A DNA stretch of 64,000 bases from Desulfuromonadales bacterium. GTDB taxonomy: Bacteria; Desulfobacterota; Desulfuromonadia; Geobacterales; Pseudopelobacteraceae. Shown here piece after piece: positions 2-16,846 of the stretch. The stretch is taken from the NCBI GenBank assembly GCA_013349325.1, contig DUZX01000012.1, forward strand, positions 1-64,000, written 5' to 3'. Below the pieces are notes generated by a model. The model was not told the DNA's origin. It made no database searches and saw only the letters and a list, made by a program, of their open reading frames with translations. Both the position numbers and the translations under genes were made by a program. The first letter of the stretch is position 1. Each line of letters opens with the position of its first letter.

Positions 2-2584
2 ATCAAACGCGTTGAGATCCTGTCGGCACTTCAGGAACGGCTGCCCGGCTCGCCGGTTATCGGCCCCGAACATCTGGGTTCTCTGCACACTCTGGGTGAA
101 ATTGCCGCCCATCTGGGCGCCGGTACCGCTCCGGCGGGCTTTTCGTCCGACCGGTCTGACCAGTCGGACCGGTCGGAAGACAACCACGATACCGGTAGCG
201 CAGGTCAAACAGTTCACCGCAGCACTGTTGTACCGATACTGATCACCGGATCAACACGAAAACTGCCACTGGCTGACAGCGGCGCTATCTGGGTTACCGA
301 CGACGGCTCGGATTTCTCCTCCACGTTATGTGACCTGTTACGTGCTGCGGGACGTGACACAAAAAAGGTCGCGATCAAGGAGGCATGTATCAACGCCTCA
401 CGGACTGAGCTGGCCGGTCTTGTTATCTGCGCTCCCGTCGGCGGAACTGATAACAACTTTTACGAACAGACGTTTCCGCTCTTAAAGAGTGCCGCAGCGG
501 CGCTGCGCAGGTCCGGAGAAAACGGCGGCGCCCTGTTTGCAAGCATCTCCCGTCTGGACGGCTCATTTGGATTTGGAACCGATAGCGCTGTGATTGACCC
601 GCTTTCCGGCGGTCTTGCTGGTATGGCAAAAACGGCGGCCCATGAGTGGAACGAAGTATCCTGTAAAGCGATCGATCTCGGGACTTTTAGCGATTGTGCC
701 GCAGCAGCTGAAGCGGTTGCGAACGAACTGCTGCTTGACGGTCCGCTGGAAGTCGGCCTGACGCCTGCAGGCAGAATCGCCCTGAAAACTATTGATCTTC
801 CTGAACTGTCACACCAGGCTACAGCACCGTTTCAAGCTGGGGATGTTGTCGTCATCACCGGAGGTGGACGCGGGGTAACGTCAGCAGCAGCTATCGCGTT
901 GGCAGCCGCCTACAAACCGCAGCTGGTCCTGCTGGGACGCAGCCAGGAATTCCAGAATGAGCCGGAATGGCTGTCACCACTTGGGGATGAAAGCCAGATA
1001 AAACGGGCTATCCTTGAGCATACCGCCGAAAAGCTCCACCCACGTGAAATAGAGGAGCGCTATCGGGCTATCGCAGCCGGGCGAGAACTCAAGGAGACTC
1101 TGGCCAAGATTGCAGAGGCTGGTGGCCGGGCAATTTACCGCTCAGTGGACATTCGCGACGCTGCTGCCGTTTCCGTTCTGCTCGATAAAATCCGCCAGGA
1201 GTACGGCCCGATCCGGGGCATCGTACATGGCGCCGGAGTGCTGGCCGACCGGCTTATCAGCGACAAGACACCGGAGCAGTTCTCCCAGGTGTACGACACC
1301 AAGGTCAAAGGATTGCAGGCGTTGCTCGCCGCTACCGTGCAGGACGATCTGTGTTGTATCGTTATGTTTTCGTCCACGACGGGACGTTTTGGCCGGAGCG
1401 GACAGGTCGATTACGCCGTTGCCAACGAAGTGCTCAACAAACTGGCTCAGACCGAGGCACGCCGCCGGTCTGCCTGCCGGGCCGTCAGCATCAACTGGGG
1501 ACCGTGGGATGGCGGCATGGTGACCCCGTCGCTGAAAAAGGTTTTCGCCGGCGAAGGAATCGGCCTGATAGGACTGAAGGAGGGCTCAGAACTGCTGGTG
1601 CGTGAGATTGCTGCCGCCGGTGAAGCGGTTGAAATCATCGCCCTGGCCGGGGCATCGGCCGCTTCACTGACAGGTGCTTCATTACCACCGGAGACGCCGC
1701 TGACCGAGGCGTTCCGCCTGAACCTGACCATAGAGGATTTCCCCTTTATCCGTTCGCATGTGATTGATGGCAAGGCAGTCCTCCCGATGGCCATGGCGGT
1801 TGAGTGGCTGGCTCACGGCGCCCTGCACGGCAATCCCGGTTTCCGTTTTCACGGGTTCAACAACCTACGCATCTGCAAAGGAATCATCTTCGATCAGGGG
1901 AGCACATGCAGCCTGAGGGTCATGGCCGGGCGCGCTGAGAAACATGATTCACTCTTCGTTGTTCCGGTTGAACTGACCGGCAGCAACGCTGACGGGCACA
2001 GCTTCCTGCATGTTCGCGCTGAAATAGTGCTTGTTTCAAAACTACCGAAGGGGATCCGCTCGATTATCGATGTCCCGTCTGCACCCTACGCGCCGGGCAA
2101 CGACGCCATCTACGACCAGGAACGCCTCTTCCACGGATCTGACCTGCACGGAATCGAACAGGTCGGAGGCTGCTCTGCCAAGGGCATTACCGCCCTGGTA
2201 AAAGCGGCACCGAAACCGGAGCTCTGGATCAAACAGCCGTTACGCACTATCTGGCTGACCGATCCACTGGTGATCGATTGCGCCTTTCAGTTGATGATTC
2301 TCTGGAGTTTCGAGCGTTCCGGTTCCGGTTCGCTCCCCTCGTTTGTCGGTCGTTACCGCCAGTTCCAGGAGAACTTCCCCTCTGAGGGGGCCCAGATCGT
2401 GATCAGGGTCACCGAAGAGCGGAACCATGGCGCATCCGCCGACATTGAATTTCTTGAACGGACCAGCGGCAAGCTGATTGCCCGTCTGGAAAACTATGAG
2501 TGCATTATCGACTCGTCACTGCAAAAGGCTTTTCGGCGCAATCAACTGACACAACCGCAGTGTGTAGAGCTGGAAGTAGCCTGA
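2..2584 (+). CDS. pfaA: PUFA-type secondary lipid synthase subunit PfaA, C-terminal part (ACP end, KR, DH)
   Basis: Partial: the frame is open from base 2, so the start lies left of the window. The first residues (IKRVEILSALQE) are what follows the phosphopantetheine serine in the DSIKRVEIL motif of PUFA-synthase acyl carrier proteins. A ketoreductase follows, with a GGGRGVT nucleotide-binding loop near base 856 and FSSTTGR...YAVANEVLN catalytic Ser/Tyr/Asn near 1370-1440. The C-terminus is a hot-dog dehydratase with HVIDGKAVLP (HxxxGxxxxP) near 1757 and DCAFQ (DxxxQ) near 2275. In PUFA synthases this subunit loads malonyl units, carries the growing chain and reduces the beta-keto group in the cytoplasm. 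The KR-then-DH ending resembles myxobacterial terrestrial-type Pfa2 rather than Shewanella PfaA, which ends at KR. The stop overlaps the next ATG (TGATG). An in-frame inverted repeat sits in the ACP-KR linker. Confidence 0.88.
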   Translation: MKRVEILSALQERLPGSPVIGPEHLGSLHTLGEIAAHLGAGTAPAGFSSDRSDQSDRSEDNHDTGSAGQTVHRSTVVPILITGSTRKLPLADSGAIWVTDDGSDFSSTLCDLLRAAGRDTKKVAIKEACINASRTELAGLVICAPVGGTDNNFYEQTFPLLKSAAAALRRSGENGGALFASISRLDGSFGFGTDSAVIDPLSGGLAGMAKTAAHEWNEVSCKAIDLGTFSDCAAAAEAVANELLLDGPLEVGLTPAGRIALKTIDLPELSHQATAPFQAGDVVVITGGGRGVTSAAAIALAAAYKPQLVLLGRSQEFQNEPEWLSPLGDESQIKRAILEHTAEKLHPREIEERYRAIAAGRELKETLAKIAEAGGRAIYRSVDIRDAAAVSVLLDKIRQEYGPIRGIVHGAGVLADRLISDKTPEQFSQVYDTKVKGLQALLAATVQDDLCCIVMFSSTTGRFGRSGQVDYAVANEVLNKLAQTEARRRSACRAVSINWGPWDGGMVTPSLKKVFAGEGIGLIGLKEGSELLVREIAAAGEAVEIIALAGASAASLTGASLPPETPLTEAFRLNLTIEDFPFIRSHVIDGKAVLPMAMAVEWLAHGALHGNPGFRFHGFNNLRICKGIIFDQGSTCSLRVMAGRAEKHDSLFVVPVELTGSNADGHSFLHVRAEIVLVSKLPKGIRSIIDVPSAPYAPGNDAIYDQERLFHGSDLHGIEQVGGCSAKGITALVKAAPKPELWIKQPLRTIWLTDPLVIDCAFQLMILWSFERSGSGSLPSFVGRYRQFQENFPSEGAQIVIRVTEERNHGASADIEFLERTSGKLIARLENYECIIDSSLQKAFRRNQLTQPQCVELEVA
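147..176. repeat. In-frame inverted repeat in the pfaA ACP-KR linker
   Basis: Perfect 10-bp arms, CCGACCGGTC (147-156) and GACCGGTCGG (167-176), encode an SSDRSDQSDRSEDN stretch between the ACP and KR domains. A related palindrome built on TCTGACCGGTCTGA lies between hdrB and hdrC at 50371-50400, suggesting a shared repeat family. That relation is by eye only. Confidence 0.6.
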
Positions 2585-5500
2585 TGGCCGATTACTGTTC
2601 ATCCGTAGCCATCGTCGGGATCGGCGGCATCTTTCCCGATGCTCCCGACCTGGCGGCTTACTGGGACAATATCAGAAGCTGCCGCAGCGCCTTCCGCGAG
2701 GTTCCTGACGGACGCTGGATGGTTCCGGCCGACTCCGTGTTCGATCCGGAGCCGGGAAAAGCGGATTGCGTCTATTCCCGCCGGGGCTGTTTCATCGACC
2801 GGCTCCCATCAGCGGCAACCCTCCCGGATCTGTCCATCGATCCGGCGCTGCTCGATGGACTCGACCCGCTCTTTCATCTTCTGATCCATGCCGGAAAGCG
2901 GGCTTTTGATGATGGTGTCACCGCGCCGCTGGACCGCTCCCGCGTTGGCATCATCATCGGCAATCTTGCCCTGCCAACGGAGACTTCGGCACTCCTGACC
3001 CGCAACGGGCTCGGGCGCACCTTCGAGGAACAGCTGCTCGGATCAGCCTCGCCCTCCTCTCCCATCTCGCCGCTCAATCGCTTTCCCACCGGTCTGCCGG
3101 CCGGGATTCTGGCCCGCACCCTCGGTCTCGGTGGCGGCGCCTGCACGCTTGATGCCGCCTGTGCCTCATCGCTGTATGCCTTGAAACTGGCCATAGATGA
3201 GCTGCTGTCCGGCAGGGTCGATGCCATGCTCTCGGGAGGCGTTTCCCGTCCCGATCCGCTCTTTACCCAGATGGGATTCTCACAACTGCGCGCCCTTTCC
3301 AAACGGGGCATCTGTTCGCCGTTTGATGCAGCAGGCGACGGGCTCGTGGTCGGTGAGGGTGCCGGGCTGTTCCTGCTCAAACGGACCGAGGATGCCGTCG
3401 CCCACGGTGACCGGATTTACGGCGTCATCAGGGGTGTCGGCCTGGCCAACGATGTAGGGGGCAGTCTGCTGGCTCCCCTGTCGGAAGGTCAGCTGCGCGC
3501 CATGCGTGCCGCCTACCATCAGGCCGGCTGGCAGCCGGATGATGTCGACCTGATCGAATGTCACGCGACCGGCACCCCGGTCGGCGATGCGGTCGAAGTT
3601 GCCAGCCTCAAACAGCTCTGGACTAACGGCGGCCGGAAAGATGCGCACTGCGTCATCGGCTCCGTCAAATCCAATATCGGCCATCTGCTGACCGCCGCAG
3701 GCGGAGCAGCAGTGACCAAGGTGCTGTTGGCACTCCAGAACGAGACACTCCCCCCCACAGCCAATTTCAATACAGCACAGTCCGGCATGAATCTCGATGA
3801 GAGCCCGTTTCGCATCCTGACTTCACCGGTACCCTGGCAGCGGAGGGGCGCTGGCATTCCCCGGCGTGCTGCCGTCAGCGCCTTCGGTTTTGGCGGCATT
3901 AATGCTCATCTGCTGATTGAGGAATGGCTGCCAGCGTCCCCCCCTCCCGACCTCCCCCCGCTGGGGGGAGGAGTAAGCTCCCTCACCCAGCGGGGGAGGG
4001 TTGGGGAGAGGGAAGCCATCGCCGTAGTCGGCATGGATGCCCGTTTCGGCCCGTGGAAATCGTTGCGGGCGTTCCAGGAACGGGTGTTGGGGGGGGATGA
4101 CACCGTGCTCCCGACCCCTCCAAAAGGGTGGCGGGGCGCAGCAGAGAGCAGATGGTTCCGTGCGGAAGGGCTCGATGCGACGCCATTCGCCGGCTTTACC
4201 ATGGACGAAGTGGCGCTACCGGCCAACCGTTTCCGCATTCCTCCGCGCGAAATGGAGGAGATGCTGCCACAGCAACTGCTCATGCTGCAAACGGCGGCAG
4301 AAGCGCTGCTCAACGCCGGTTGCGACCGGGACAGCAACTCTTCTACCGGCGTCTTTATCGGCATCGCCCTTGATCTGAACAGTACCAACTTCAGTCTGCG
4401 CTGGGATCTGACCGGTAAGCTCTTACGCTGGGAACAGCACCTGGGACGGGAATTGACTACCAAGGAACAGTCGGAGTGGCTATTAAAGCTCCGCGCCGCT
4501 ACAGGACCATCCCTGAACGCCAACCGCACCATGGGAGCACTTGGAAGTGTCGTAGCCAGCAGAATCGCCCGCGAATTCCGTATCGGCGGGCCGAGTTTCA
4601 CGATCTCCAGCGAGGAGAGTTCCGGCATCCGGGCTCTGGAGGTGGCCGTCCGCCAGCTTCAGAATCGTGAACTTGATCGGGCTCTGGTCGGCGCGGTGGA
4701 TCTGGCCGGTGACCTGCGTGCGGTTCTCGGACAGCATGCCCTGCACCCCTATTCCCATTCAGGTAGCTCTGCCCCGTTTGACGAAACAGCCGACGGCGCA
4801 CTTATCGGTGAAGGCGCCTGCGCAGTGGTGCTCAAACGCCTTGAAGATGCCGAGCGTGACGGCGACCGCGTGTATGCCGTCATTCGTGGCATCGGCTCCG
4901 CAAGCGGCGATCCGGTCGCTGCCGGACAGAAAACCTATCTGCATGCCCTTGATAAAGCCTACGCTGACGCAGGCGTGCCTCGGGAATCCGTCGGTTTGAT
5001 TGAGGCGAGCGCCGACGGCACCCCTGAAGCTGACGCTCATGAAGCAGCTGCCCTGGCATCCTGGTTTGCTTCCGACAACGCTCCGGCCCGTTCATGCGCC
5101 GTCAGCAGCGTCAAGGGGGATATCGGCCACAGCGGCGCGGCTTCCGGTCTGGCGTCGTTCGTGCGTGGTTGCCTGGCCTTATACCATGAAATCATTCCCG
5201 GCTGCCGTAGTCTGACTTCAGACGCTCCGGCGCTCCCGCAGCGGTCGCCGCTTCATTTTCCCCGCTCCTCCCGTTACTGGCTGCGCAACCGCAGCGACGG
5301 CCCACGCCGCGCCGGAGTCACCGTTCAAAGCGTTGACGGTTCCTGCAGTCATGTGGTCCTCGAAGGGTACGACACGGTCATGTCCGGTGATACAGCGGAC
5401 CGCTGTGCCCCGCTCGGAGCGGGCAGTGAAGCCCTCTTTGCCATTGCCGGTGATACGACAGCCGAACTTCTGGCGCAATTGGACCTGCTTGAGGGGGCGT

Positions 5501-8500
5501 TAGAGGGTTCTTCTGCCAGCCTCTACGACCTGGCCTCTACCTGGTATCCACACTTTGCGGCAGGCGCCGGTAAAAAGCGTGCCATGGCCATAGTTGCCCG
5601 GGATCGCGCCGAATTGACTCTGTTGATTGATCTGGGCCGAACCACACTGAAGAATAACGGCACTCCCCCTGCTACCGCACCGGGGTTGCGTGACCGGCTG
5701 TTTTATTCAGCAAAACCGCTGGGATCAGCAGGAAAGGTAGCGTTCGTCTTTCCCGGCTCCGGCAATCATTATTCCGGCATGGGGATGGAACTGTTCAGCC
5801 GCTGGCCGGATGTTCTGCGTCGTCAGGATCAAGAGAACCTTCTGCTACGGGCGCAGTTCCAGCCGGAGCTGTTCTGGAACGGCGCCGCAGCATCGCGGAT
5901 CAATGACGACCATCGGTCCGTAATTTTTGGCCAGGTAGCCACCGGCTGCGCCGTCAGTGACCTGGTGCAGCGTTTCGGCGTCCACCCGGCCGCCGTCATC
6001 GGCTACAGCCTCGGTGAATCGGCGGGGCTCTTCTCCCAACGGGCGTGGCGCGACCGGGACGCGATGTATGACCGTATGCAGGAATCAACCCTCTTTAGCG
6101 ATGATCTGGCCGGCGAATGCCGTGCGGCCAAACTGGCCTGGGGCCTGAAAGATGGTGAAACTGTGCAGTGGAGCCTCGGCGTTGTCGCTGCCCCGGAACG
6201 GGCTGTGCAGGCGCTGCTGCCGAAGTTCCCGCGCACCTATCTCCTGATCGTCAATACCCCCGATGAATGTGTTATCGGCGGTGATGCCAGCAAACTGTCC
6301 CGCTTGGTGGCGGCGCTCGACAGCCCGTTTTTTCCACTGCAGGGGGTGACCACCGTGCATTGCGAGGTAGCCCAACAGGTGGCAACGCCGTACCACGATC
6401 TGCATCTGTACCCCACAAAAGCACCGACCGGTGTGGTCTATTACAGCGGCGTCAGCGGCGATTCCTATGAGGTCACCCGCGAAAGTGCCGCCGCATCGAT
6501 CCTCGGTCAGGCGCTGCACGGCCTCAACTATCCGCAGGTGATTGAATCGGCCTATCGTGACGGTGTCCGGCTGTTTCTGGAGATGGGACCGGGCGCATCC
6601 TGCAGCCGCATGATCGGGCGCATCCTCGGCGATCGTCCGCATCTGGCCCGCTCGGCCTGTCATGCCGGTCAGGATCCGGTATCCGTCGTTCTGAAGATGC
6701 TGGCCAACCTGATCGCCGAACGGCTGCCGGTTGATCTGTCACCGTTGTTTGATCTCCCGCACAGAATTGATGCTGAGGCACATAGCGGAGCAATGGTGCG
6801 GGTCGTACTCGGCGGCGCTCCATTTCAGCCGCCGCAGCCTGATGTACCCTGTAGGGGCGACGCCGTTGGCGCGCCCATCGCTGCAATAGCCAATGATGCG
6901 GTATTGCCAGACAGGGCGACCCGCCGGGATCGCCCCTACGGAAACGATAATTCTTTAATTTTTACGCCCGATTCGCTGATATCCGAACTGGCCCGCTCCC
7001 AGCAGTCCCATTCGGAAGCCCATGCGGCCTTCCTGACTGTCAGCGAGACCGTGACCGCTGCCATGGCGCAGGCACTGACCCTGGAAATGTCGCTGCGTCA
7101 GGCGCTGGGGGATGATGCTCCTTTTGAAACCAACCGCTCCCGGCCTGACCTTATCAGGGGAGGCGACATACCCTTGAGCCCCCCTGATAAGGGGGGGTGG
7201 GGGGTTGCCTTCAACCGCGAGCTCTGCTTCGAGTTTGCGCGTGGTTCGGTGGCTCGCATGCTGGGTCCCGATTTTACCGAAGTGGACGCCTTTCCGACCC
7301 GTGTCCGCCTGCCGGATGAACCACTGATGCTGGTAGACCGGATCATGAGCGTCGAGGGGGAACCACGCTCCATGTCTCATGGCAGGGTTGTCACTGAACA
7401 TGATATCCAGCCGGGCGCCTGGTATCTGGATGGCGGTCGCATCCCCACCTGCATCGCCGTGGAGGCCGGCCAGGCCGACCTGTTCCTGTCCGGCTATCTC
7501 GGCATCGACTTCATGACCCGGGGTCTGGCGGTCTATCGCCTGCTCGACGCCGTGGTCACCTTCCATCGCGGCCTCCCCGGACCGGGAGAGACGATCCATT
7601 ACGACATCCGCATTGAACGGTTCTTCCGTCAGGGGCATACCTGGCTGTTCCGCTTCTTCTTCGAGGCCACCATCAACGGCCAGCCGCTTTTGTCGATGCG
7701 CGACGGCTGCGCCGGGTTCTTCAGCCAGCAGGAACTTGATGCCGGCAAGGGCATCGTTCGTCCGGTGCTTGATCTGCGCCCCACATCCGGCATCCGCCCG
7801 GCTGACTGGCAGGATCTGGTGCCGCTGGCGCGCGAAGGGTACGATGCTGCTCAACTGGATAGGCTGCGCAACGGCGATCTGGCCGGCTGTTTCGGGCCGT
7901 TGTTCGCCCGCCTGCCGCTCTCCCGTCCGCTGACGATTCCGGGAGGCAGAATGCGCCTCGTCCACCGCGTCAATGAAATCGATCCGAACGGCGGGCGCTG
8001 CGGAATCGGCCTCATCAGGGCCGAAGCCGACATCCACCCTGACGACTGGTTTATCACCTGTCATTTCGTCGATGACCGGGTCATGCCGGGCACCCTGATG
8101 TACGAGTGCTGCATGCACACGCTCCGCATCTACCTGCTGCGGATCGGATGGGTTGCCGAAGCGGCTGGTTCGGTCTGGGAGCCGCTGCCGGGTGTGGCCA
8201 GCAAGCTCTGCTGCCGCGGACAAGTACTCGAAAGCACCCGAGTCGTTACCTATGAGGTCACCATCCGGGAAATCGGCTACCGTCCGGAACCATACGTAAT
8301 CTGTGACGCCCTGATGTACGCCGACGGCAAACCGATTGTCGAGATCACCAGCATGTCGGCCCGCCTGACCGGCACAACCAGAGAACAGCTTCAGGCACTC
8401 TGGAGTGGACAACATACTTCCGCAGACAGTCCCCTCCCCCTTGGCGGGGGAGGGTTAGGGAGGGGAGAGACTTGCCAGAACCAAAGCCAGTCGCACCTTC

Positions 8501-9627
8501 ACCCATCCCCTACCCCCCTCCCGTCAAGGGTGGGGGAAATCAAACCGTCCATCTACACCAAAGAGCAGATTCTGGCCTACAGTAACGGCAACCCCTCTGA
8601 AGGATTCGGTGACCGCTACCGCATATTCGACAGCGGGCGCAAGATTGCCCGCCTGCCGGGGCCGCCGTTCCAGTTCATGGACCGGGTCACCGCCCTGCGC
8701 GGCGAACCGTGGCAGATGACCGCCGGTGCCATGGCGGAAGCACAGTATGACCTGCCAGCCGACGCCTGGTTTTTTGCTGCTGAGCGGCAGCCGCGCATGC
8801 CGTTTTGCGTCCTGCTGGAAGCGGCGCTGCAGCCGTGCGGTTGGCTGGCTGCCTACGTGGGCTCGGCGCTGACCAGCCCGAATGACATCTCCTTCCGCAA
8901 TCTGGGGGGCACCGCCGTGCAGCACCGGACCGTGACTCCCGACAGCGGCGTCCTGACCTGCTGCGCCACCATGAACAAGGTTGCCACCAGCGGCGGCATG
9001 ATTATCCAGGAGTTTGACTTCAGCGTTGCCGATCGGCATGGCATCCTCTACGAGGGAGATACCATGTTCGGCTTCTTTGCCAAGGAAGCGCTGGCTAATC
9101 AGGTCGGTCTCCGCGACGCTAAGCCGTATCAGCCGACTGAGTCGGAGAGCAGGCGGGGCCGAAGCCTCCTGTATCCGGACGGTGCGCCGTTCCCGGAAAA
9201 ACAGTTGGCTATGATCGACCGGATTGAGCTGTACGTTCCCGACGGCGGGCCGAACGGACTCGGTTACATTCGCGGCATTAAGGATGTCGATCCGGATGAA
9301 TGGTTCTTCAAGGCGCACTTTTACGAGGATCCGGTCACACCCGGCTCTCTGGGACTGGAATCGTTCATTCAATTGATGAAGTTTGCAGCTGTGGAGCGCT
9401 GGGAATGGAAAAATGGAACGGTCGTTGCGGCAGTGGCATTGGAACGGAAGCACCACTGGCTCTATCGCGGTCAGGTTGTGCCGACTAACAGCCGGGTAAC
9501 GGTTAGCGCCTGGATCACCGCTGTGGACGACCAAAAACGAATTATGACCGCAGATGGCTTTCTGTCTGTGGATGGAAAGTTGATTTATCAGATGATGGAT
9601 TTCACTGTAACCATGGAGCCACTATGA
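2584..9627 (+). CDS. pfaC: PUFA-type secondary lipid synthase subunit PfaC (KS-CLF-AT-DH-DH)
   Basis: 2347 residues; the ATG overlaps the pfaA stop. Domains in order: an active ketosynthase (about 1-450; Cys193 in DAACASS, His327 in CHATGT, His367 in NIGH); a chain-length factor (about 480-960; Glu678 replaces the catalytic Cys in SSEESSG); an acyltransferase (about 1050-1400; GYSLGES with Ser1142); then four hot-dog folds forming two FabA-like dehydratase regions (about 1575-1930 and 2020-2345), with CHFVDDRVMPG and KAHFYEDPVTPG motifs. The subunit should elongate the chain and dehydrate/isomerise it to place double bonds. The AT is a separate PfaB protein in Shewanella; the fused order matches myxobacterial Pfa3 without its acyltransferase tail. 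No enoyl reductase (PfaD) is in the window. Four linkers contain repeat-derived, proline/glycine/arginine-rich sequence. The stop overlaps oleA (ATGA). Confidence 0.9.
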   Translation: MADYCSSVAIVGIGGIFPDAPDLAAYWDNIRSCRSAFREVPDGRWMVPADSVFDPEPGKADCVYSRRGCFIDRLPSAATLPDLSIDPALLDGLDPLFHLLIHAGKRAFDDGVTAPLDRSRVGIIIGNLALPTETSALLTRNGLGRTFEEQLLGSASPSSPISPLNRFPTGLPAGILARTLGLGGGACTLDAACASSLYALKLAIDELLSGRVDAMLSGGVSRPDPLFTQMGFSQLRALSKRGICSPFDAAGDGLVVGEGAGLFLLKRTEDAVAHGDRIYGVIRGVGLANDVGGSLLAPLSEGQLRAMRAAYHQAGWQPDDVDLIECHATGTPVGDAVEVASLKQLWTNGGRKDAHCVIGSVKSNIGHLLTAAGGAAVTKVLLALQNETLPPTANFNTAQSGMNLDESPFRILTSPVPWQRRGAGIPRRAAVSAFGFGGINAHLLIEEWLPASPPPDLPPLGGGVSSLTQRGRVGEREAIAVVGMDARFGPWKSLRAFQERVLGGDDTVLPTPPKGWRGAAESRWFRAEGLDATPFAGFTMDEVALPANRFRIPPREMEEMLPQQLLMLQTAAEALLNAGCDRDSNSSTGVFIGIALDLNSTNFSLRWDLTGKLLRWEQHLGRELTTKEQSEWLLKLRAATGPSLNANRTMGALGSVVASRIAREFRIGGPSFTISSEESSGIRALEVAVRQLQNRELDRALVGAVDLAGDLRAVLGQHALHPYSHSGSSAPFDETADGALIGEGACAVVLKRLEDAERDGDRVYAVIRGIGSASGDPVAAGQKTYLHALDKAYADAGVPRESVGLIEASADGTPEADAHEAAALASWFASDNAPARSCAVSSVKGDIGHSGAASGLASFVRGCLALYHEIIPGCRSLTSDAPALPQRSPLHFPRSSRYWLRNRSDGPRRAGVTVQSVDGSCSHVVLEGYDTVMSGDTADRCAPLGAGSEALFAIAGDTTAELLAQLDLLEGALEGSSASLYDLASTWYPHFAAGAGKKRAMAIVARDRAELTLLIDLGRTTLKNNGTPPATAPGLRDRLFYSAKPLGSAGKVAFVFPGSGNHYSGMGMELFSRWPDVLRRQDQENLLLRAQFQPELFWNGAAASRINDDHRSVIFGQVATGCAVSDLVQRFGVHPAAVIGYSLGESAGLFSQRAWRDRDAMYDRMQESTLFSDDLAGECRAAKLAWGLKDGETVQWSLGVVAAPERAVQALLPKFPRTYLLIVNTPDECVIGGDASKLSRLVAALDSPFFPLQGVTTVHCEVAQQVATPYHDLHLYPTKAPTGVVYYSGVSGDSYEVTRESAAASILGQALHGLNYPQVIESAYRDGVRLFLEMGPGASCSRMIGRILGDRPHLARSACHAGQDPVSVVLKMLANLIAERLPVDLSPLFDLPHRIDAEAHSGAMVRVVLGGAPFQPPQPDVPCRGDAVGAPIAAIANDAVLPDRATRRDRPYGNDNSLIFTPDSLISELARSQQSHSEAHAAFLTVSETVTAAMAQALTLEMSLRQALGDDAPFETNRSRPDLIRGGDIPLSPPDKGGWGVAFNRELCFEFARGSVARMLGPDFTEVDAFPTRVRLPDEPLMLVDRIMSVEGEPRSMSHGRVVTEHDIQPGAWYLDGGRIPTCIAVEAGQADLFLSGYLGIDFMTRGLAVYRLLDAVVTFHRGLPGPGETIHYDIRIERFFRQGHTWLFRFFFEATINGQPLLSMRDGCAGFFSQQELDAGKGIVRPVLDLRPTSGIRPADWQDLVPLAREGYDAAQLDRLRNGDLAGCFGPLFARLPLSRPLTIPGGRMRLVHRVNEIDPNGGRCGIGLIRAEADIHPDDWFITCHFVDDRVMPGTLMYECCMHTLRIYLLRIGWVAEAAGSVWEPLPGVASKLCCRGQVLESTRVVTYEVTIREIGYRPEPYVICDALMYADGKPIVEITSMSARLTGTTREQLQALWSGQHTSADSPLPLGGGGLGRGETCQNQSQSHLHPSPTPLPSRVGEIKPSIYTKEQILAYSNGNPSEGFGDRYRIFDSGRKIARLPGPPFQFMDRVTALRGEPWQMTAGAMAEAQYDLPADAWFFAAERQPRMPFCVLLEAALQPCGWLAAYVGSALTSPNDISFRNLGGTAVQHRTVTPDSGVLTCCATMNKVATSGGMIIQEFDFSVADRHGILYEGDTMFGFFAKEALANQVGLRDAKPYQPTESESRRGRSLLYPDGAPFPEKQLAMIDRIELYVPDGGPNGLGYIRGIKDVDPDEWFFKAHFYEDPVTPGSLGLESFIQLMKFAAVERWEWKNGTVVAAVALERKHHWLYRGQVVPTNSRVTVSAWITAVDDQKRIMTADGFLSVDGKLIYQMMDFTVTMEPL
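3937..4012. repeat. Palindromic repeat inside pfaC, KS-CLF linker
   Basis: A C-rich arm ending CCCCGCTGGGG faces a G-rich arm beginning CCCAGCGGGGGAGGG: an imperfect inverted repeat of about 25 bp per arm. It encodes the PPPDLPPLGGG...QRGRVGERE linker after the first KS. The composition is that of common bacterial intergenic repeats of the CCCTCTCCCC type, yet the reading frame is kept. Confidence 0.75.
6851..6939. repeat. Palindromic repeat inside pfaC, AT-DH linker, copy 1
   Basis: Perfect 10-bp ends GTAGGGGCGA (6851-6860) and TCGCCCCTAC (6930-6939) bound an 89-bp unit ending in the widespread GGGCGACCCG...TCGCCCCTAC pattern. It is translated in frame as an Arg/Ala/Asp-rich linker after the acyltransferase. 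Confidence 0.75.
7149..7205. repeat. Palindromic repeat inside pfaC, AT-DH linker, copy 2
   Basis: Perfect 12-bp arms CCTTATCAGGGG (7149-7160) and CCCCTGATAAGG (7181-7192) are followed by a G-run. Translated in frame as DLIRGGDIPLSPPDKGGWG just before the first dehydratase region. Confidence 0.8.
8430..8538. repeat. Palindromic repeat inside pfaC, between the two DH regions
   Basis: A left arm, CCCCTCCCCCTTGGCGGGGG and the G-rich run after it, faces a right arm of C-rich sequence ending CCGTCAAGGGTGGGGG. The arms are about 60 bp apart. In frame it gives a SPLPLGGGGLGRGE...PSPTPLPSRVGE linker separating the two double-hot-dog regions. Confidence 0.75.
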
Positions 9628-10667
9628 AATACCGTAACGTTGTTATCGAAGCAATGGGCTACGAACTGGCTCCGGTTGTCGTTACCACGGCAGAACTTGA
9701 AGCACGGCTGGAACCGCTGTACCGCTACCTGCGCATCGTACCGGGGCAATTGCAGGCTCTGACCGGCATTCGTGAAAGGCGCTGGTGGGAGCCTGGCTAT
9801 CCACTGTCATACGGAGCGATTGCCGCTGCGCGGAAGGTTCTTTCGGTAACCGGTATTTCGCCAGGCGACATTGGGGCTCTGATTTACACCGGGGTCTGTC
9901 GCGAGCAGTTTGAACCTGCCACGGCCTGCAGGGTCGCCGCCAAAATCGGCATCGGCGGCAAAGCCGCCGTATTTGATCTCTCCAACGCCTGCCTGGGCGT
10001 TCTTAACGGCATTCTGGATGTTGCCAACAGAATCGAACTTGGCCAGATAAAGGCCGGCCTCGTGGTTTCCTGCGAAAGCGCCCGCGAAATTAACGATATC
10101 ATGATCGAGAGAATGCTGGAAGAGCGCACCATGCAGCACTTCGGCGCTTCACTCGCAACTCTGACCGGCGGCTCCGGCGCTGTTGCCATCCTGCTGACAG
10201 ACGGTTCGTTTTCAGGCTCGTCGCGGCGCCGTCTGCTGGGCGGCATAACACAGGCGGCTCCGGAGCATCACCGGCTCTGTCTCTGGGGGATCACCCCGGA
10301 CGGCAAGGGGGGGTATCTGCAGAACATGTCAACTGACGGCGTCAATGTCATGAACTATGGCGTTGAACTTGGCCGGACAACCTGGGACACGTTCCTGCCG
10401 CATATCGGCTGGAAAACCGGGGATGTTGATCAGGTGATCTGCCATCAGGTCGGCTCTGCCCATCAAAGCGCCATTCTCAAGACACTCGATATCCCTGCCG
10501 AAAAAGACTTTAGCACCTATGAATATCTGGGTAATATGGGAACCGTATCCCTGCCGCTGACAGCCGCTATTGCCGATGAACGGGACATATTGGAAGCGGG
10601 CGACAAGGTGGCGTTTCTGGGAATCGGCAGCGGCTTGAACTGCCTGATGCTGGGGATAGAATGGTAA
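9624..10667 (+). CDS. oleA: OleA-like acyl-CoA/acyl-ACP condensing enzyme (thiolase superfamily)
   Basis: 347 residues. The fold is FabH-like, but the details are those of OleA, which joins two fatty acyl chains head-to-head into a beta-keto acid, the first step of long-chain olefin synthesis. Visible residues: Glu97 in EPATA (the OleA-specific second-channel glutamate), nucleophile Cys123 in SNACLG, His274 in CHQVGSAH and Asn304 in YLGNMGT. The ATG overlaps the pfaC stop and the 3' end overlaps oleB by 7 bases, so all are probably one transcript with coupled translation. Its position suggests it takes acyl chains made by the Pfa synthase, as in Shewanella where Pfa plus Ole give a C31 polyene; that coupling is inference. 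A FabH-type elongation starter is less likely. Confidence 0.83.
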   Translation: MKYRNVVIEAMGYELAPVVVTTAELEARLEPLYRYLRIVPGQLQALTGIRERRWWEPGYPLSYGAIAAARKVLSVTGISPGDIGALIYTGVCREQFEPATACRVAAKIGIGGKAAVFDLSNACLGVLNGILDVANRIELGQIKAGLVVSCESAREINDIMIERMLEERTMQHFGASLATLTGGSGAVAILLTDGSFSGSSRRRLLGGITQAAPEHHRLCLWGITPDGKGGYLQNMSTDGVNVMNYGVELGRTTWDTFLPHIGWKTGDVDQVICHQVGSAHQSAILKTLDIPAEKDFSTYEYLGNMGTVSLPLTAAIADERDILEAGDKVAFLGIGSGLNCLMLGIEW

Positions 10668-11578
10668 ACGCCCGGCTGAAAGTTGAATACCCGTTCAACG
10701 GGAAGCACCTCGATATTGACGTCCCTTCGACTTCGCCCAGGGCAGGCCTCTCCTGTCATTATCTGGATGAAGGTACCGGCTCACCGGTGGTAATGGTGCA
10801 CGGCAACCCCTCCTGGTCGTTCTATTACCGCAATTTGGTTTTGGCGCTGCGTGACCGCTATCGCTGCATCGTGCCCGACCATATCGGCTGCGGCCTGTCC
10901 GACAAACCGAGTGACGATCGCTATGAGTACACCCTCTCCCGTCGCGTTGATGATCTGGAACGGTTGCTTGATACGTTGGAGGTTACGGAGAACATCACGC
11001 TCGTTGTGCATGACTGGGGCGGAATGATCGGCATGGCCTACGCTGTGCGCCACCCCGAGCGGATTGTACGACTGGTAATACTCAATACCGGGGCTTTCCA
11101 CCTGCCGAAAGCCAAACCGTTTCCACCCGGCCTGCGCATCTGCCGTGACACGGTTCTCGGCACGCTGCTGGTACGCGGCTTCAACGCCTTCAGCGTCGGT
11201 GCATCCTATGTCGGCTGCAAACGCAATCCGATGTCCAAGGATCTTCGCGCGCTCTACCAGCTCCCCTACAATTCGTGGCAGAACCGCATAGCCACGCTCC
11301 GCTTCGTGCAGGATATTCCGCTCACCCCCGGTGACCGTGGTTATGATCTGGTCACCGCCGTTTCTGACGGCATCGGACAATTCAGCAATCTGCCAATGTT
11401 GATTCTCTGGGGCGAGCTGGATTTTGTCTTTGACCGGCATTTTCTGGCCGAATGGAAGCAGCGTTTCCCGGATGCCGAACTCCATAGCTACCCGGATTGC
11501 GGGCATTATATCCTCGAAGACGCCAAAGAGGAGGTCGTGCCGCTGATATGCCGGTTTCTTGAGCGAACAGGAGCATAA
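10661..11578 (+). CDS. oleB: OleB-like alpha/beta hydrolase (haloalkane dehalogenase-type fold)
   Basis: 305 residues. HGNPSWSF at 47-54 is the oxyanion region, Asp118 in HDWGG the nucleophile, and His282 in CGHYILED the general base: the Asp-nucleophile pattern of the dehalogenase subfamily to which OleB belongs. OleB decarboxylates cis-beta-lactones to alkenes in the OleABCD route. It starts inside the end of oleA (ATGGTAA overlap). OleC (beta-lactone synthetase) and OleD (reductase) would be expected next, but a gene of the opposite strand follows. The N-terminal DVPSTSPRAG segment is encoded by sequence resembling half of a TTCGACTTCGCCCAGGG repeat. A generic hydrolase cannot be excluded. 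Confidence 0.78.
   Translation: MVNARLKVEYPFNGKHLDIDVPSTSPRAGLSCHYLDEGTGSPVVMVHGNPSWSFYYRNLVLALRDRYRCIVPDHIGCGLSDKPSDDRYEYTLSRRVDDLERLLDTLEVTENITLVVHDWGGMIGMAYAVRHPERIVRLVILNTGAFHLPKAKPFPPGLRICRDTVLGTLLVRGFNAFSVGASYVGCKRNPMSKDLRALYQLPYNSWQNRIATLRFVQDIPLTPGDRGYDLVTAVSDGIGQFSNLPMLILWGELDFVFDRHFLAEWKQRFPDAELHSYPDCGHYILEDAKEEVVPLICRFLERTGA
10723..10746. repeat. Possible half-unit of an intergenic repeat inside oleB
   Basis: CCCTTCGACTTCGCCCAGGG then CAGG resembles the left arm of the repeat inside rnr (CCCTTCGGCTCCGCTCAGGG at 34131-34150). It encodes residues about 21-29. Only one arm is seen, so chance similarity is possible. Confidence 0.4.
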
Positions 11579-11640
11579 GCGGTCTGCCCTTGACACGAGA
11601 TAATTTACCGCAATATACGTTGGTTTCAAATGCCATACCA

Positions 11641-11667
11641 ACAAAACGAGCGGCATCGCTGCCGCTC
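11641..11667 (-). terminator. Rho-independent terminator of the diguanylate cyclase gene
   Basis: On the minus strand, GAGCGGCA-GCGA-TGCCGCTC is a perfect 8-bp stem with a 4-base loop, followed by GTTTTGTT. It begins about 40 bases after the stop. The plus strand has no T-run after it, so oleB has no clear terminator here. Confidence 0.7.
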
Positions 11668-11707
11668 TCGAAAACCACGGGCACATCTCTGATTCGCAAG
11701 CGATCCA

Positions 11708-13645
11708 TCAACATACTATGCGATTTTTACCGCTGCTTTTAGCAGCGTACATCAAGTCGTCTACACGTTTGAATATAGTATCAAGCGTGTCGTCTGCCCG
11801 GCAGGAGGTCATCCCGAAGCTCGCTGTTACATTGTCCATTTCACCTGCTCTATGACGTGCCAGGGCTATACGCAATTTCTCAGCAACTAATGCGGCCTCA
11901 GAATGATTAGTCCCTGACAACAAAATCATGAACTCCTCACCTCCCCAACGACCAACCGCGTCGAGAGTCCTGATGTTTTGGCCCACAATTTCAGCGATGT
12001 CTTGTAGCACCCTGTCTCCAATATTGTGGCCTAAATTGTCATTTATGCTCTTGAAATTGTCTACATCAAACATGATCAACGAGAATGAACTGCCGTACCT
12101 CCTGGAACGTTCCAGTTCCGCCTCAATTTTTTCTTCAATAGATTTCCTGTTAAAAATGCCTGTCAGGCTGTCATAGTTAGCAGCCCGGACCAGTTCCCTT
12201 TCCATTTTTTTCCTGTCGGTGATATCGCGAATAAAGCTGAAGAACCGTCCACCATTTTCGTCAAGATATGTTATCGTGACTTCAACGTCGATTTCCGTTC
12301 CATCCCTGCATTTATGTTTTGATATAAAAGAGTCGGAACCGGCTTTAATGATCTTATCTATATGCGCTGCTACCATCTCGGGGTTTTCAATAGCTTCAAT
12401 ATCTTCAATTTTCATGGTCACGAGCTCTTTGGCGGTATAGCCGACCATTTTACAGAATGAGCCGTTGACCTCCAGTATTCTGCCATGGGCATCACTCATA
12501 TTGAACCCGTCTGAAGTCGTTTGCACAATTGTCCGATATTCATCTGCCTTATGTTGGAGCTCCCTGACACTATCTTCCAGTCGTTGTGCCATCTTGTCAA
12601 AGGTCTGCCCCAGCTTTCCAAGTTCGCCTCCTCCGACCTCATCAGCAATTCTGGTATGCAGATCTCCGACAGCCAAACGCAGGGAGGCACGCTCCAGAGC
12701 AAGAACCCTGTTAATGATATATTTCTTGCCAATCAGCCATGAGATAAAGAAGGCGACGACGAGAGAGACGGAATAAATCATCAGGTTTTTGCCAAGGGCG
12801 GCATTCGTTTCGAGCATGACTGCGGCTGACGGAATACCGGCTCGAACGTACATGTATGGCGTTGATTCACTCTCAAGACGTAATTTGCGATATGTTTGAA
12901 TGCGATTATCGCCAACAGCACTGCTTGCACCGGCGGAAGTCTCTTCTTCCGGTCCCTCCATCATATATCTGAATATTTCCGGGTTTGCCTGCTTACCCAC
13001 GTATTTTTCAGGATCAACCGCTCTTGTCAAAATAATACCTTTATGGTCAATGAGCGCATAACTTGAGCCTTGAGGCAATTTGAATGCTCTGAAAATATGC
13101 TGGTAGTAGTCCAATGAAAGAGCGGCGCAAATGACCGACGTCACCCTGCCGGCTTCATCCATCAATGGATACCCAAGGATAAACGAAGCTTTATCGGTGA
13201 CTCTTCCGATGTTGTACTCGCCCGAAGACAATGTACCACGTGCCAGTGCATTCTTGAAATATCGTTCGTCTGACACCGAAATAGACTCTCTCAATGGGAC
13301 TGCCGACGCCCAGACCACACCGGTCGGGCCCGCTATGAATATATTTATGTACTGTGGGCTTAGTTTCAATATTTCAGCTAAAATGGCCTTGACTTCGACT
13401 TGTTTACGGAGTTTGACATCGGGTAACTGTGACAAGGCAATAAATAATTGACGAGTTGACGCAACAAGATTTTTTTGTTCACTGACAATTGCTTCAGCCA
13501 ACTTTTGTGTTTCTGTCTGTGCATTGTGGATGGCGTTCCTTCTTTGTTGAAGCCCCGAGTTGATGATTATACAGATGGCGGGCAAGGCAATGATGGAAAC
13601 GATTATGAATAGTTGATATTTTATTGAAAGTCGAGATAAGAACAT
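11708..13645 (-). CDS. Membrane diguanylate cyclase (Cache-HAMP-PAS-GGDEF)
   Basis: 645 residues. A first membrane segment at about 8-28, a periplasmic Cache-type sensor of some 240 residues, a second membrane segment at about 290-310, then HAMP, PAS (about 365-485) and GGDEF. The active site reads GGEEF at 568-572, and RTLD at 559-562 is the inhibitory I-site at the correct five-residue spacing. It should make c-di-GMP in response to an external small ligand and be product-inhibited. It is a lone gene converging on oleB. The PilZ protein at 36.8-37.5 kb is one possible receptor in the window, but nothing ties them directly. Ligand unknown. Confidence 0.93.
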   Translation of the reverse strand: MFLSRLSIKYQLFIIVSIIALPAICIIINSGLQQRRNAIHNAQTETQKLAEAIVSEQKNLVASTRQLFIALSQLPDVKLRKQVEVKAILAEILKLSPQYINIFIAGPTGVVWASAVPLRESISVSDERYFKNALARGTLSSGEYNIGRVTDKASFILGYPLMDEAGRVTSVICAALSLDYYQHIFRAFKLPQGSSYALIDHKGIILTRAVDPEKYVGKQANPEIFRYMMEGPEEETSAGASSAVGDNRIQTYRKLRLESESTPYMYVRAGIPSAAVMLETNAALGKNLMIYSVSLVVAFFISWLIGKKYIINRVLALERASLRLAVGDLHTRIADEVGGGELGKLGQTFDKMAQRLEDSVRELQHKADEYRTIVQTTSDGFNMSDAHGRILEVNGSFCKMVGYTAKELVTMKIEDIEAIENPEMVAAHIDKIIKAGSDSFISKHKCRDGTEIDVEVTITYLDENGGRFFSFIRDITDRKKMERELVRAANYDSLTGIFNRKSIEEKIEAELERSRRYGSSFSLIMFDVDNFKSINDNLGHNIGDRVLQDIAEIVGQNIRTLDAVGRWGGEEFMILLSGTNHSEAALVAEKLRIALARHRAGEMDNVTASFGMTSCRADDTLDTIFKRVDDLMYAAKSSGKNRIVC

Positions 13646-13843
13646 ATGTGATAATCCGCCTGGATTCGGTATGAAAAAAAGTTATCCGGTTATTGAACGG
13701 TCTTCCCTGCCATCGCAGAGCTTCATGGCAGTCAGGATGACATTACATACTAAAGGAGTAATGTTGGCACGCCGCAACGGGGCGCGTCATTTTAGTGAGA
13801 ACTATCGTATATCACCCAGAGAGTGATTCCGAAAACCAATGAA
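13646..13843. other. Intergenic region upstream of the diguanylate cyclase gene
   Basis: About 200 bases between two leftward genes. It holds a short inverted repeat (CTGCCAT/ATGGCAG, 13707-13731) without a T-run and no clear promoter match. I saw no GEMM (c-di-GMP) riboswitch core here. Confidence 0.4.
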
Positions 13844-15106
13844 TCAAGATTTCTCCGTGCCGATATAGCGCACACCACCGACAAAAACCTCCTGCACGCT
13901 CCCCTCAAGCAGGATCCGATCCAGCGACGCTTCTGCTCCGCCACTGCACCCCGAAACGACCTGAAAATCAGCACGTTTTCCAACCTCCAGCGTACCGCAG
14001 GCAGCTGAAATACCGAGAGCTGCGGCGCCGCTGCTTGTAACCATGCGGAAGACGTCCTCTGCACAAAGGTCGTTCGGGAAGCAGCCCAGCGCAAAACGGA
14101 TCTCATCCCACAGCGAGAGCGAATCATTGCTGGCCAGCGAATCGGTTCCAAGTGCCAGCGGAATTCCGAGCTTTTTGAAGAGGGCAACCGGAGCACTCCC
14201 GACGTCCAGACAGGTATTGCTGCGCGGGCAGAGCACAACGTGTACCCCGCGATCCTTTAAAATGCGGGCATCGCTGAGCGATACGTGAACGCAGTGCACC
14301 GCCAGTGTACTCGACGTCAGGAGACCGTGCCGCTCCAGTAGCTGCGTGGAACTGCAGCGGTGCGGCGCCGTTAGAAATCGCTCCCAGTCGACAAAAGGAT
14401 AAAACTCCGTCGCAAGCTGACCGCTGCTGTCGAAAATAAAATCGGTTTCAGCAGAGGATTCCGACACGTGGATTGACAGCGGCAGGTTGTGCAGTGAGGA
14501 CATCTCTCGAATGACGGACAGGTGCTGCTCGGCAACCGTATAGAGTGAATGTGGTGAAAGACCGGTCACCAGCCTGTCTGAAATTGTGTGCGCGGCGGCC
14601 AATGCAGCCCTGGATGTCACGTTAAAGTGACTCCGTTCCTGTCCCAGCATTTCAAAGTAGAGTCGTCCGCTCAACAACGACTCATGATAAAGAGCAGTCA
14701 AGTCGGGATAGGTGACGATTTCTGCAACCGCTGTTGTTCCGGATTCCAGACAGAGGCGGATACCTTCACACAGCGACGATGGATAGTCGGCAGCTGTCAA
14801 CCCGCGCTTGATCTTGATCAACTGGATAATCCAGTCAGTGAAATGTCGCGGGTTATAGGCCACATTCGTTCTCAGTTTCCAGGCCGGAAAGTGTGTCAAT
14901 TCCAAATGCGTGTGGGCATTGACGAAGCCCGGCAGGATCGAGCAACCCGGGAATTCAACCACCGGGGCCGAATGTGCCCGGCGCAGTTCCTCAACGCTTC
15001 CGGTGGCAACGATCGTACCGTTATGCACCAGCAGTCCACCTCCGTCAACAGGCGGGACATCAGGATTAATCAGCCGGGAAGCGGCATAAATAGAGGGTGC
15101 CGACAT
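13844..15106 (-). CDS. Metal-dependent amidohydrolase, possible aminodeoxyfutalosine deaminase (MqnX type)
   Basis: 420 residues. The start at 15106 is chosen over an in-frame ATG 27 bases upstream because GTGGAGG lies 7 bases before it. Amidohydrolase signatures: NAHTHLE (His65, His67), SPHSLYT, IHVSES and GTDSLASND, the metal- and substrate-site pattern of the TRZ/ATZ, S-adenosylhomocysteine and methylthioadenosine deaminase group. Geobacter relatives make menaquinone by the futalosine route and use such a protein to deaminate aminodeoxyfutalosine, so that is the best guess. No other mqn gene is nearby, so a nucleoside deaminase of another specificity remains possible. Confidence 0.72.
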   Translation of the reverse strand: MSAPSIYAASRLINPDVPPVDGGGLLVHNGTIVATGSVEELRRAHSAPVVEFPGCSILPGFVNAHTHLELTHFPAWKLRTNVAYNPRHFTDWIIQLIKIKRGLTAADYPSSLCEGIRLCLESGTTAVAEIVTYPDLTALYHESLLSGRLYFEMLGQERSHFNVTSRAALAAAHTISDRLVTGLSPHSLYTVAEQHLSVIREMSSLHNLPLSIHVSESSAETDFIFDSSGQLATEFYPFVDWERFLTAPHRCSSTQLLERHGLLTSSTLAVHCVHVSLSDARILKDRGVHVVLCPRSNTCLDVGSAPVALFKKLGIPLALGTDSLASNDSLSLWDEIRFALGCFPNDLCAEDVFRMVTSSGAAALGISAACGTLEVGKRADFQVVSGCSGGAEASLDRILLEGSVQEVFVGGVRYIGTEKS

Positions 15107-15292
15107 AGTGTAACCTCCACAACGAAGTGGCAAAAAATCAAAGAATACCCTAAAAACATCCGTTAGCCATCAATTAAAAAACAACCCTGCCGACTTTACA
15201 ATGTTTCGAATCAGCCTCTCGTTGAATTCCTGATGGTATCATGCTATAGAATCTCTCCGGCATTCAAATACTTCAACAGCAGGTATGCTCCC

Positions 15293-16243
15293 ATGTCACT
15301 TGCAGAGCAGGTTTTAGAAGGCAATATTCGCGCCGCAGCCCGTCTGATGCGCGATATTGATGACGGTCGACCACAGGCGATTGATGAGTTAAAAGCCCTG
15401 TATCCGCATTCGGGCAAAGCCTATATCGTTGGCATTACCGGCCCCCCCGGCGCAGGAAAGTCAACGCTGGTCGATCAATTGACCGCAGCGTTCCGCGCTC
15501 AGGGCAAGCGGGTCGGGGTGGTTGCCATTGATCCCAGCAGCCCTTTTACCGGCGGCGCAATTCTGGGCGACCGGATCCGGATGAACCGGCACGCCTGCGA
15601 CGAAGGGGTGTTTATCCGCAGCCTGGCAACGCGCGGCTCTCTGGGCGGGCTGTCACGCTCGACCTCGGATGTCGCTCTGGTCATGGATACCATGGGAATG
15701 GACATTGTCATCATCGAAACGGTCGGCGTCGGCCAGGATGAAGTTGATATCGTCAAGACAGCGCATACCACCTGCGTTGTCATGGTTCCGGGGATGGGTG
15801 ACGATATTCAGGCCATCAAGGCCGGTATTCTCGAGATCGGCGACATCTTCGTCGTCAACAAGGCTGATCGGGATGGATCCGATCGAACGGCTCGTGAGCT
15901 CTCAAATATGCTGGAGATGCGCAACGCCACAGAAGGGTCATGGAGTCCACCGGTAATGAAGACGGTGGCCCAGCGTGGCACGGGCATTCCAGAGCTGGTT
16001 GCCGAGATTGATGCCCATCGTGAATTTCTCTTTACAAGCGGCTGTGGCACCGATTTCCTGCGCGAGCGCAATGAACGACACTTTATGGAAATTCTGCGCG
16101 ACCGACTCTTTAAGAACGCTCTGGCGTATATGGAATCGGACGGCCTGCTTGAACAGATTGTGACAGGTATGGGTGCTCATACTCTTGATCCCTATTCAGC
16201 TGCGGAAGAAATCATGGCCAGCATAATGCCTGGGCGTAAGTAA
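15293..16243 (+). CDS. meaB: MeaB/ArgK-family G3E GTPase
   Basis: 316 residues from the ATG at 15293; longer in-frame starts lack family similarity. Walker A is GPPGAGKS at about 50-57, followed by the MeaB-specific VVAIDPSSPFTGGAILGDR region, the switch/Walker B ETVGVGQDE and the NKAD guanine-specificity motif. MeaB loads and protects the B12 cofactor of methylmalonyl-CoA mutase, which fits propionate/acetate metabolism in Geobacter-like bacteria. The mutase genes are not in the window. It diverges from the amidohydrolase gene. The ribosome site (AGCAGGT) is weak. Confidence 0.92.
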   Translation: MSLAEQVLEGNIRAAARLMRDIDDGRPQAIDELKALYPHSGKAYIVGITGPPGAGKSTLVDQLTAAFRAQGKRVGVVAIDPSSPFTGGAILGDRIRMNRHACDEGVFIRSLATRGSLGGLSRSTSDVALVMDTMGMDIVIIETVGVGQDEVDIVKTAHTTCVVMVPGMGDDIQAIKAGILEIGDIFVVNKADRDGSDRTARELSNMLEMRNATEGSWSPPVMKTVAQRGTGIPELVAEIDAHREFLFTSGCGTDFLRERNERHFMEILRDRLFKNALAYMESDGLLEQIVTGMGAHTLDPYSAAEEIMASIMPGRK

Positions 16244-16248
16244 TTCCA

Positions 16249-16361
16249 ATTCCAGATCAAGGATGATATCAAGGCGGCGAGGATTGAGGCTGCGAGGCGT
16301 GCATGTCCGTACGTTGAGCAGCCGAAGACGAGTCAACGAAGAGAGTGCCTTGATATGGAAT
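16249..16361. repeat. Intergenic element with inverted ends, about 113 bp
   Basis: ATTCCAGATCAAGG (16249-16262) and CCTTGATATGGAAT (16348-16361) are inverted copies with one mismatch. A second ATATCAAGGC (16266-16275) also pairs perfectly with the right end. The interior (GGCGGCGAGG...) has no reading frame. It looks like a non-autonomous miniature element or structured repeat. Copy number elsewhere cannot be judged here. Confidence 0.65.
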
Positions 16362-16450
16362 AGGTATAACATGCTTTAGAGATTGAATTATCTGATTTTT
16401 GTTATATACTCGCAGCTGTTCGAACTAACCTTGAATCTGGAGAACTTGTG

Positions 16451-16846
16451 ATGTCGTTGACCGGAATAGCACTTATCATCATTGCTGTTGCTTTCTGTAT
16501 CCTGGTGCTGACTTTGGTGCCGGCCATTCTCGCCTTCAAGCGCACCACCGAATCCGTCACATCGCTGTCAGAGATGATCAAGACCGAATTGAAACCGACC
16601 TTGCAGGAGTTAACGGAAGTTCTGTCAGAATTGAAAACAGTCGGTGGCGGGATAGCTGAGCATACAGACGATGTCCTGCACTTCATGTCGGCACTGGGCG
16701 AAACCGGCACCAACCTTCAGACCATCAACCAGTCAGTCGGTGTGGTTACCAACATTCTTAACACCACCTCGGTCTGGGCGACCGGGGCCAAGGTGGCAGG
16801 AAAATACATGCTTGATCATTATCTTAAAAAACGGGGAGGTAAGTAA
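16451..16846 (+). CDS. DUF948 membrane-anchored protein
   Basis: 131 residues. One N-terminal membrane helix (about 5-27), then a predicted coiled coil rich in Thr, Ser, Glu and Leu, as in DUF948 proteins. CTGGAG ends about 9 bases before the ATG. The next gene, YtxH-type, follows after two bases. Such pairs occur together in many Gram-positive bacteria and Geobacter relatives and are linked to envelope or general stress, but no biochemical role is established. Confidence 0.8.
   Translation: MSLTGIALIIIAVAFCILVLTLVPAILAFKRTTESVTSLSEMIKTELKPTLQELTEVLSELKTVGGGIAEHTDDVLHFMSALGETGTNLQTINQSVGVVTNILNTTSVWATGAKVAGKYMLDHYLKKRGGK

Follow-up and report, generated by a model that had tools for sequence, protein, structure and literature searches.

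The pfa-ole gene cluster of the window

The window, the whole stretch of 64,000 nucleotides analysed here, comprises bases 1-64000 of contig C12 (85,766 bases) of the source genome (G000), to which contigs C1 and C47 also belong and which totals 3.58 Mb in 72 contigs, with a completeness rated at 99.96%. Its position 1 is base 1 of C12, i.e. a contig end. Four plus-strand genes are found here (Table 1), with junction overlaps of 1, 4 and 7 bases, in line with the 1-7 bases given in an earlier note on this DNA: the TGA of pfaA (2582-2584) shares a base with the ATG at 2584, pfaBC and oleA are joined by ATGA at 9624-9627, and the oleB ATG at 10661 lies within oleA, whose TAA ends at 10667. These overlaps, together with the same gene order in relatives, support the proposal of that note that oleA and oleB are likely co-expressed with the Pfa synthase.

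Table 1. Location of the pfa and ole genes in the window and of the second operon on contig C1.
Feature	Location	Strand	Basis or setting
pfaA, C-terminal piece (ACP end, KR, dehydratase-like region)	2..2584	+	TIGR02813 PfaA, KR PF08659
pfaBC fusion (KS, CLF-like second KS, PfaB-like AT, FabA-like dehydratases)	2584..9627	+	domain models
oleA, predicted head-to-head acyl condensation	9624..10667	+	PRK09258, 3fk5 alignment
oleB, predicted beta-lactone decarboxylase (haloalkane-dehalogenase-like)	10661..11578	+	PF00561, haloalkane dehalogenase models
oleC-oleD-PPTase operon	C1:90968-94343		well inside a 227-kb contig

The first gene had been named pfaA in the earlier note; its family assignment stands, while the gene is not whole, as only positions 1876-2581 of the 2582 in the TIGR02813 PfaA model are matched and the frame begins at position 2, at the contig end. 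The second, previously called pfaC, does contain the pfaC part, not as a plain pfaC but within a pfaBC fusion with the domain order KS-CLF-AT-DH in a single frame. PF00109 and PF02801 each match it in two stretches and PF07977 in three, and a PfaB-like match to TIGR02816 at 1076-1418 falls under the cut-off of that model. The first KS carries DAACASS and the second has TISSEESS at the expected position of the Cys motif; the second KS, being without this motif, is presumably chain length factor-like. In Shewanella, pfaB and pfaC are separate genes.

The product of oleA scores 488.8 bits against the NCBIfam model PRK09258 (cut-off 285), aligns over its full length to structure 3fk5 and also matches Xanthomonas-type OleA structures; we take 3fk5 and 3row to be OleA of Xanthomonas. 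It has Cys123, Glu97, His274 and Asn304, presumably the catalytic residues, and the catalytic Cys of OleA is elsewhere given as C123 (PMC6463001). OleB is an alpha/beta hydrolase with an intact HDWGG motif including Asp118, and its nearest models are haloalkane dehalogenases, every one under its cut-off. As no OleB-named model is present among the best 25 of its 27 NCBIfam matches, gene position carries weight for the name. No structure named OleB or OleC occurs among the 60 solved structures listed for OleB and for OleC. Both family and catalytic residues agree with the predicted identities of OleA and OleB.

A diguanylate cyclase gene on the minus strand follows oleB in convergent orientation, and the promoter and terminator scan gave only minus-strand sites after oleB. 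A terminator-like hairpin (0.5 expected by chance) lies between the two genes at 11648-11667 on the minus strand. No remnant of oleC or oleD was found by tblastn (E <= 1) in window positions 11401-16500, where the same search gave one 21-residue PPTase match (E 0.98), and a decayed oleCD pair downstream of oleB was rejected. Further along the window, a scan of 53229-54089 gave sub-cut-off matches only.

The upstream half of the synthase

The gene pfaD is encoded on C47 (606 bits, cut-off 449). It is adjoined by the N-terminal part of pfaA (KS-MAT-ACP), which runs off the end of that contig, with a 4-base overlap between the two frames. On the gene strand, C47 ends in 97 bases that recur without mismatch as the first 97 of the window, within an ACP. 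In all five relatives inspected, pfaD-pfaA-pfaBC is unbroken, with three to four tandem ACP motifs, and pfaBC is followed by oleA; the fifth of these is G059 (L118). The ACP repeats are most probably where the assembly was interrupted, and the full operon would then be pfaD-pfaA-pfaBC-oleA-oleB. The putative C47-C12 join is drawn from the 97-bp overlap in a repeat-prone region rather than from a spanning contig.

With this join, the pfaBC fusion, pfaA and pfaD that define the Type I secondary lipid (Pfa-like) synthase of Shulse and Allen are all present. Type I clusters, known from Geobacter, Pelobacter propionicus and Desulfuromonas acetoxidans, have pfaB and pfaC fused and have been proposed to feed olefin synthesis; the ole genes are often linked to them but can reside elsewhere, and hentriacontanonaene (C31:9) is made by Geobacter bemidjiensis (PMC3098273). 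In the latter, pfaD, A, B and C, oleA, B, C and D, and pfaE are found in tandem (PMC4882568), while the pfa and ole operons of Photobacterium profundum are adjacent (PMC6463001). The linkage of pfa and ole genes, regarded as unusual in the earlier note, is thus published. The window cluster corresponds to the published Type I secondary lipid synthase, with the known Geobacter-type gene set.

A second operon with oleC, oleD and a PPTase gene

A single OleC over the cut-off was recovered from the genome, at C1:90968-92602, with 738.9 bits to PRK09274 (cut-off 478). Its best specific models are two olefin beta-lactone synthetase models, one matched at 675.4 bits (cut-off 900) and the other at 633.8 bits (cut-off 850), the next model reaching 210.5 bits. 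Directly after it, at C1:92602-93594, lies oleD, whose product outscores every other 3-beta-HSD-type reductase in the genome and has two 2-alkyl-3-oxoalkanoate reductase (OleD) models as its best matches (470.1 and 421 bits, cut-off 580; next model 161.4). The PPTase encoded after oleD exceeds the PF01648 cut-off and scores 138.3 bits with the HetI model, under the cut-off of 370. As OleB, OleC, OleD and the PPTase fall under the cut-offs of the strict models, the names given to them draw on broader models, on gene order and on the tandem relatives. The oleC/oleD and oleD/PPTase junctions each overlap by 4 bases, and on sequence grounds the three putative genes form a tight second operon in the same genome.

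Thus OleC and OleD, like OleA and OleB, are encoded in this genome, and the four ole genes are split between an oleAB and an oleCD operon rather than joined in one. The earlier note had held oleC and oleD to be missing, which is true of the locus and not of the genome; of its two alternatives, that these genes lie elsewhere is borne out by the C1 operon, while the other, a ketone as end product or a distinct secondary-lipid pathway, finds no support here. The genome search it had proposed, for oleC, oleD, pfaD and a PPTase, recovered all four on C1 and C47, and so supplied the gene half, oleCD elsewhere, of what it had named as refuting its reading.

None of the neighbours of oleC on C1 (a SNF2 helicase, an amidase, an unnamed ORF, hisG and hemE) had a tblastn counterpart at E <= 1e-8 when ten loci around oleC in other genomes (L105-L114) were searched. 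Nine of these loci lie on a contig other than that of oleA, three of them (L106-L108) being contig-end cases, with G069 left out; the tenth is that of G059, at 273 kb. A relocation site common to the relatives was rejected on this result.

Arrangement of the ole genes among relatives

The nearest OleA relatives are encoded in MAGs named Geobacteraceae, Desulfuromonadaceae or Deltaproteobacteria, with identities of up to 96%. Among the best 80 of 133 related loci, pfaBC is present in 73, oleB in 79 and oleC in 58, and the single locus with no oleB match after oleA ends at a contig end. The order pfaBC-oleA-oleB-oleC-oleD occurs in 49 of these 80 loci, with the PPTase gene next in 29 of the 49, so that oleB sits between oleA and oleC in the tandem relatives. 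In G046 (OleA 96%; L117), pfaBC-oleA-oleB-oleC-oleD-PPTase is found in one piece. With the tandem cluster common and G046 whole, the split in the source genome is best read as a rearrangement. The remaining 22 of the 80 loci have no oleC; in 14 of them the sequence extends 2500 bases or more past oleB, and in all 14 OleC is present in the genome, outside the examined stretch around oleA, which can mean on the same contig (e.g. L043 of the cultured Pelotalea chapellei DSM 13688, with oleC 11.6 kb from oleA). This check covered 20 loci picked by eye, including all 14; the other six genomes also have OleC, and in L027 and L030, which are among the 20, oleC is present further on.

Across 76 genomes of the family, OleA was found in 44, OleC in 47, OleD in 45 and OleB in 43. 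OleC is present in 44/44 genomes with OleA, both OleC and OleD in 42/44, and 29 of the 76 have neither OleA nor OleC (Fisher p 6e-18 for OleA/OleC co-occurrence, a value that ignores kinship). The three genomes with OleC and no OleA (G035, G047 and G061) are each in more than 150 contigs, and in the two OleA genomes with no OleD match (G002 and G005) oleC is next to a contig end. These counts omit a weak second OleC-like row in G010 (34% identity) and, where an OleD match is split, its additional fragment (G050, G055 and G072).

The gap between oleA and oleC is below 1500 bases in 19/44 genomes and 1.5-4.3 kb, still clustered, in nine. Both genes are on one contig at least 8.6 kb apart in five (G004, G032, G054, G057 and G059) and on different contigs in 11, seven of these well inside contigs; the other four (G025, G027, G042 and G069) are contig-end cases and may be mere breaks. 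In 40 of 45 genomes oleC and oleD lie within 400 bases of each other. These two genes can come apart too, as in G037 (OleA 95%; L105, L119), where oleAB, oleC and oleD are on three contigs (C166, C414 and C339). The single-contig genome G059 (L118, G059:C1:1522000-1538000) is a well-assembled example of a dispersed ole set, with oleB ~10 kb after oleA and oleC 273 kb away. In G004 (L121, G004:C15:47000-66000), oleB-oleC-oleD are together and oleA is ~11 kb off, with pfaBC. The oleB match of G002 (L034, G002:C219:5158-6042) contains an in-frame TGA and the oleD match of G050 (G050:C76:22631-23571) is broken in two and contains a TGA; these are either decaying genes or assembly errors.

Proposed pathway and alternative readings

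The source genome very probably encodes the standard route from Pfa chains to an Ole polyene hydrocarbon, with the ole genes split over two operons by rearrangement of a tandem cluster, and not a new pathway. The gene content, gene order, families, catalytic residues and co-occurrence are directly observed. For the activity of the system, we infer co-transcription, chain length, product and flux as follows. The pfaD-pfaA-pfaBC genes would be co-transcribed with oleA and oleB, and the PPTase would arm the ACPs of PfaA. The synthase may then make an acyl chain with several double bonds, 16:4 if Shewanella is taken as the model, and OleA would join two such chains head to head. The beta-keto acid would be reduced by OleD, the beta-lactone closed by OleC and decarboxylated by OleB, giving a C31 polyene such as hentriacontanonaene.

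The same genes are known from G. bemidjiensis, namely pfaD, pfaA, pfaBC, downstream oleA and oleB, and oleC, oleD and a PPTase gene (PMC3098273, PMC4882568), but oleC, oleD and pfaE are reported there in tandem (PMC4882568), whereas in this genome oleC, oleD and the PPTase gene make up a separate operon, located on a different contig. The scheme proposed here is also that described for Shewanella, where OleA connects the Pfa and Ole pathways and the chains made by Pfa are converted by OleABCD to C31:9; the Shewanella pfa genes are named pfaABCDE and its oleABCD genes are given as an operon of their own (PMC6463001), whereas here oleAB is tied to pfa and pfaBC is fused. Clusters with oleACD and no oleB share the OleA, OleC and OleD families with this genome and make beta-lactone natural products, whereas the presence of oleB here points to a decarboxylated olefin rather than a lactone (PMC7064751).

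Separate regulation of the two operons, such that flux sometimes goes no further than the OleA product, whether ketone or beta-keto acid, or another lipid takes up the Pfa chains, is a very unlikely alternative in which the split is itself functional. Detached layouts do recur, as several relatives have oleA and oleC placed on separate contigs or at least 8.6 kb apart, some of them being contig-end cases. However, the neighbours of oleC on C1 were not found at the ten other oleC loci, which fits repeated neutral rearrangement, and in G004 it is oleA that is set apart while oleB stays with oleC, so that no single split pattern emerges. It is similarly improbable that the repeated detachment of oleCD from pfa-oleAB has been selected, with separate control switching between a polyene ketone, made by OleA alone, and a polyene hydrocarbon; were this true, the polyene ketone would be a physiological product.

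A truncated pathway, in which OleA condenses Pfa chains to a long-chain ketone and OleB is idle or acts on another substrate, would accord with oleC and oleD lying outside the window operon and with the 31:8 ketone formed by E. coli carrying the Pfa operon and OleA (PMC6463001). It is extremely improbable and was rejected, as oleC and oleD are found in the C1 operon, OleC accompanies OleA in all 44 of the 76 family genomes that have OleA, and the OleB, which in the known pathway is described as acting only after OleC (PMC6463001), retains its Asp.

The preferred reading, the standard polyene hydrocarbon pathway over two operons, carries little meaning beyond annotation: one candidate for a new pathway is removed. 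For the family, OleA never occurs without OleC among the 44 genomes that encode it, though the operon is often broken up, and the absence of a gene should therefore be judged per genome rather than per contig.
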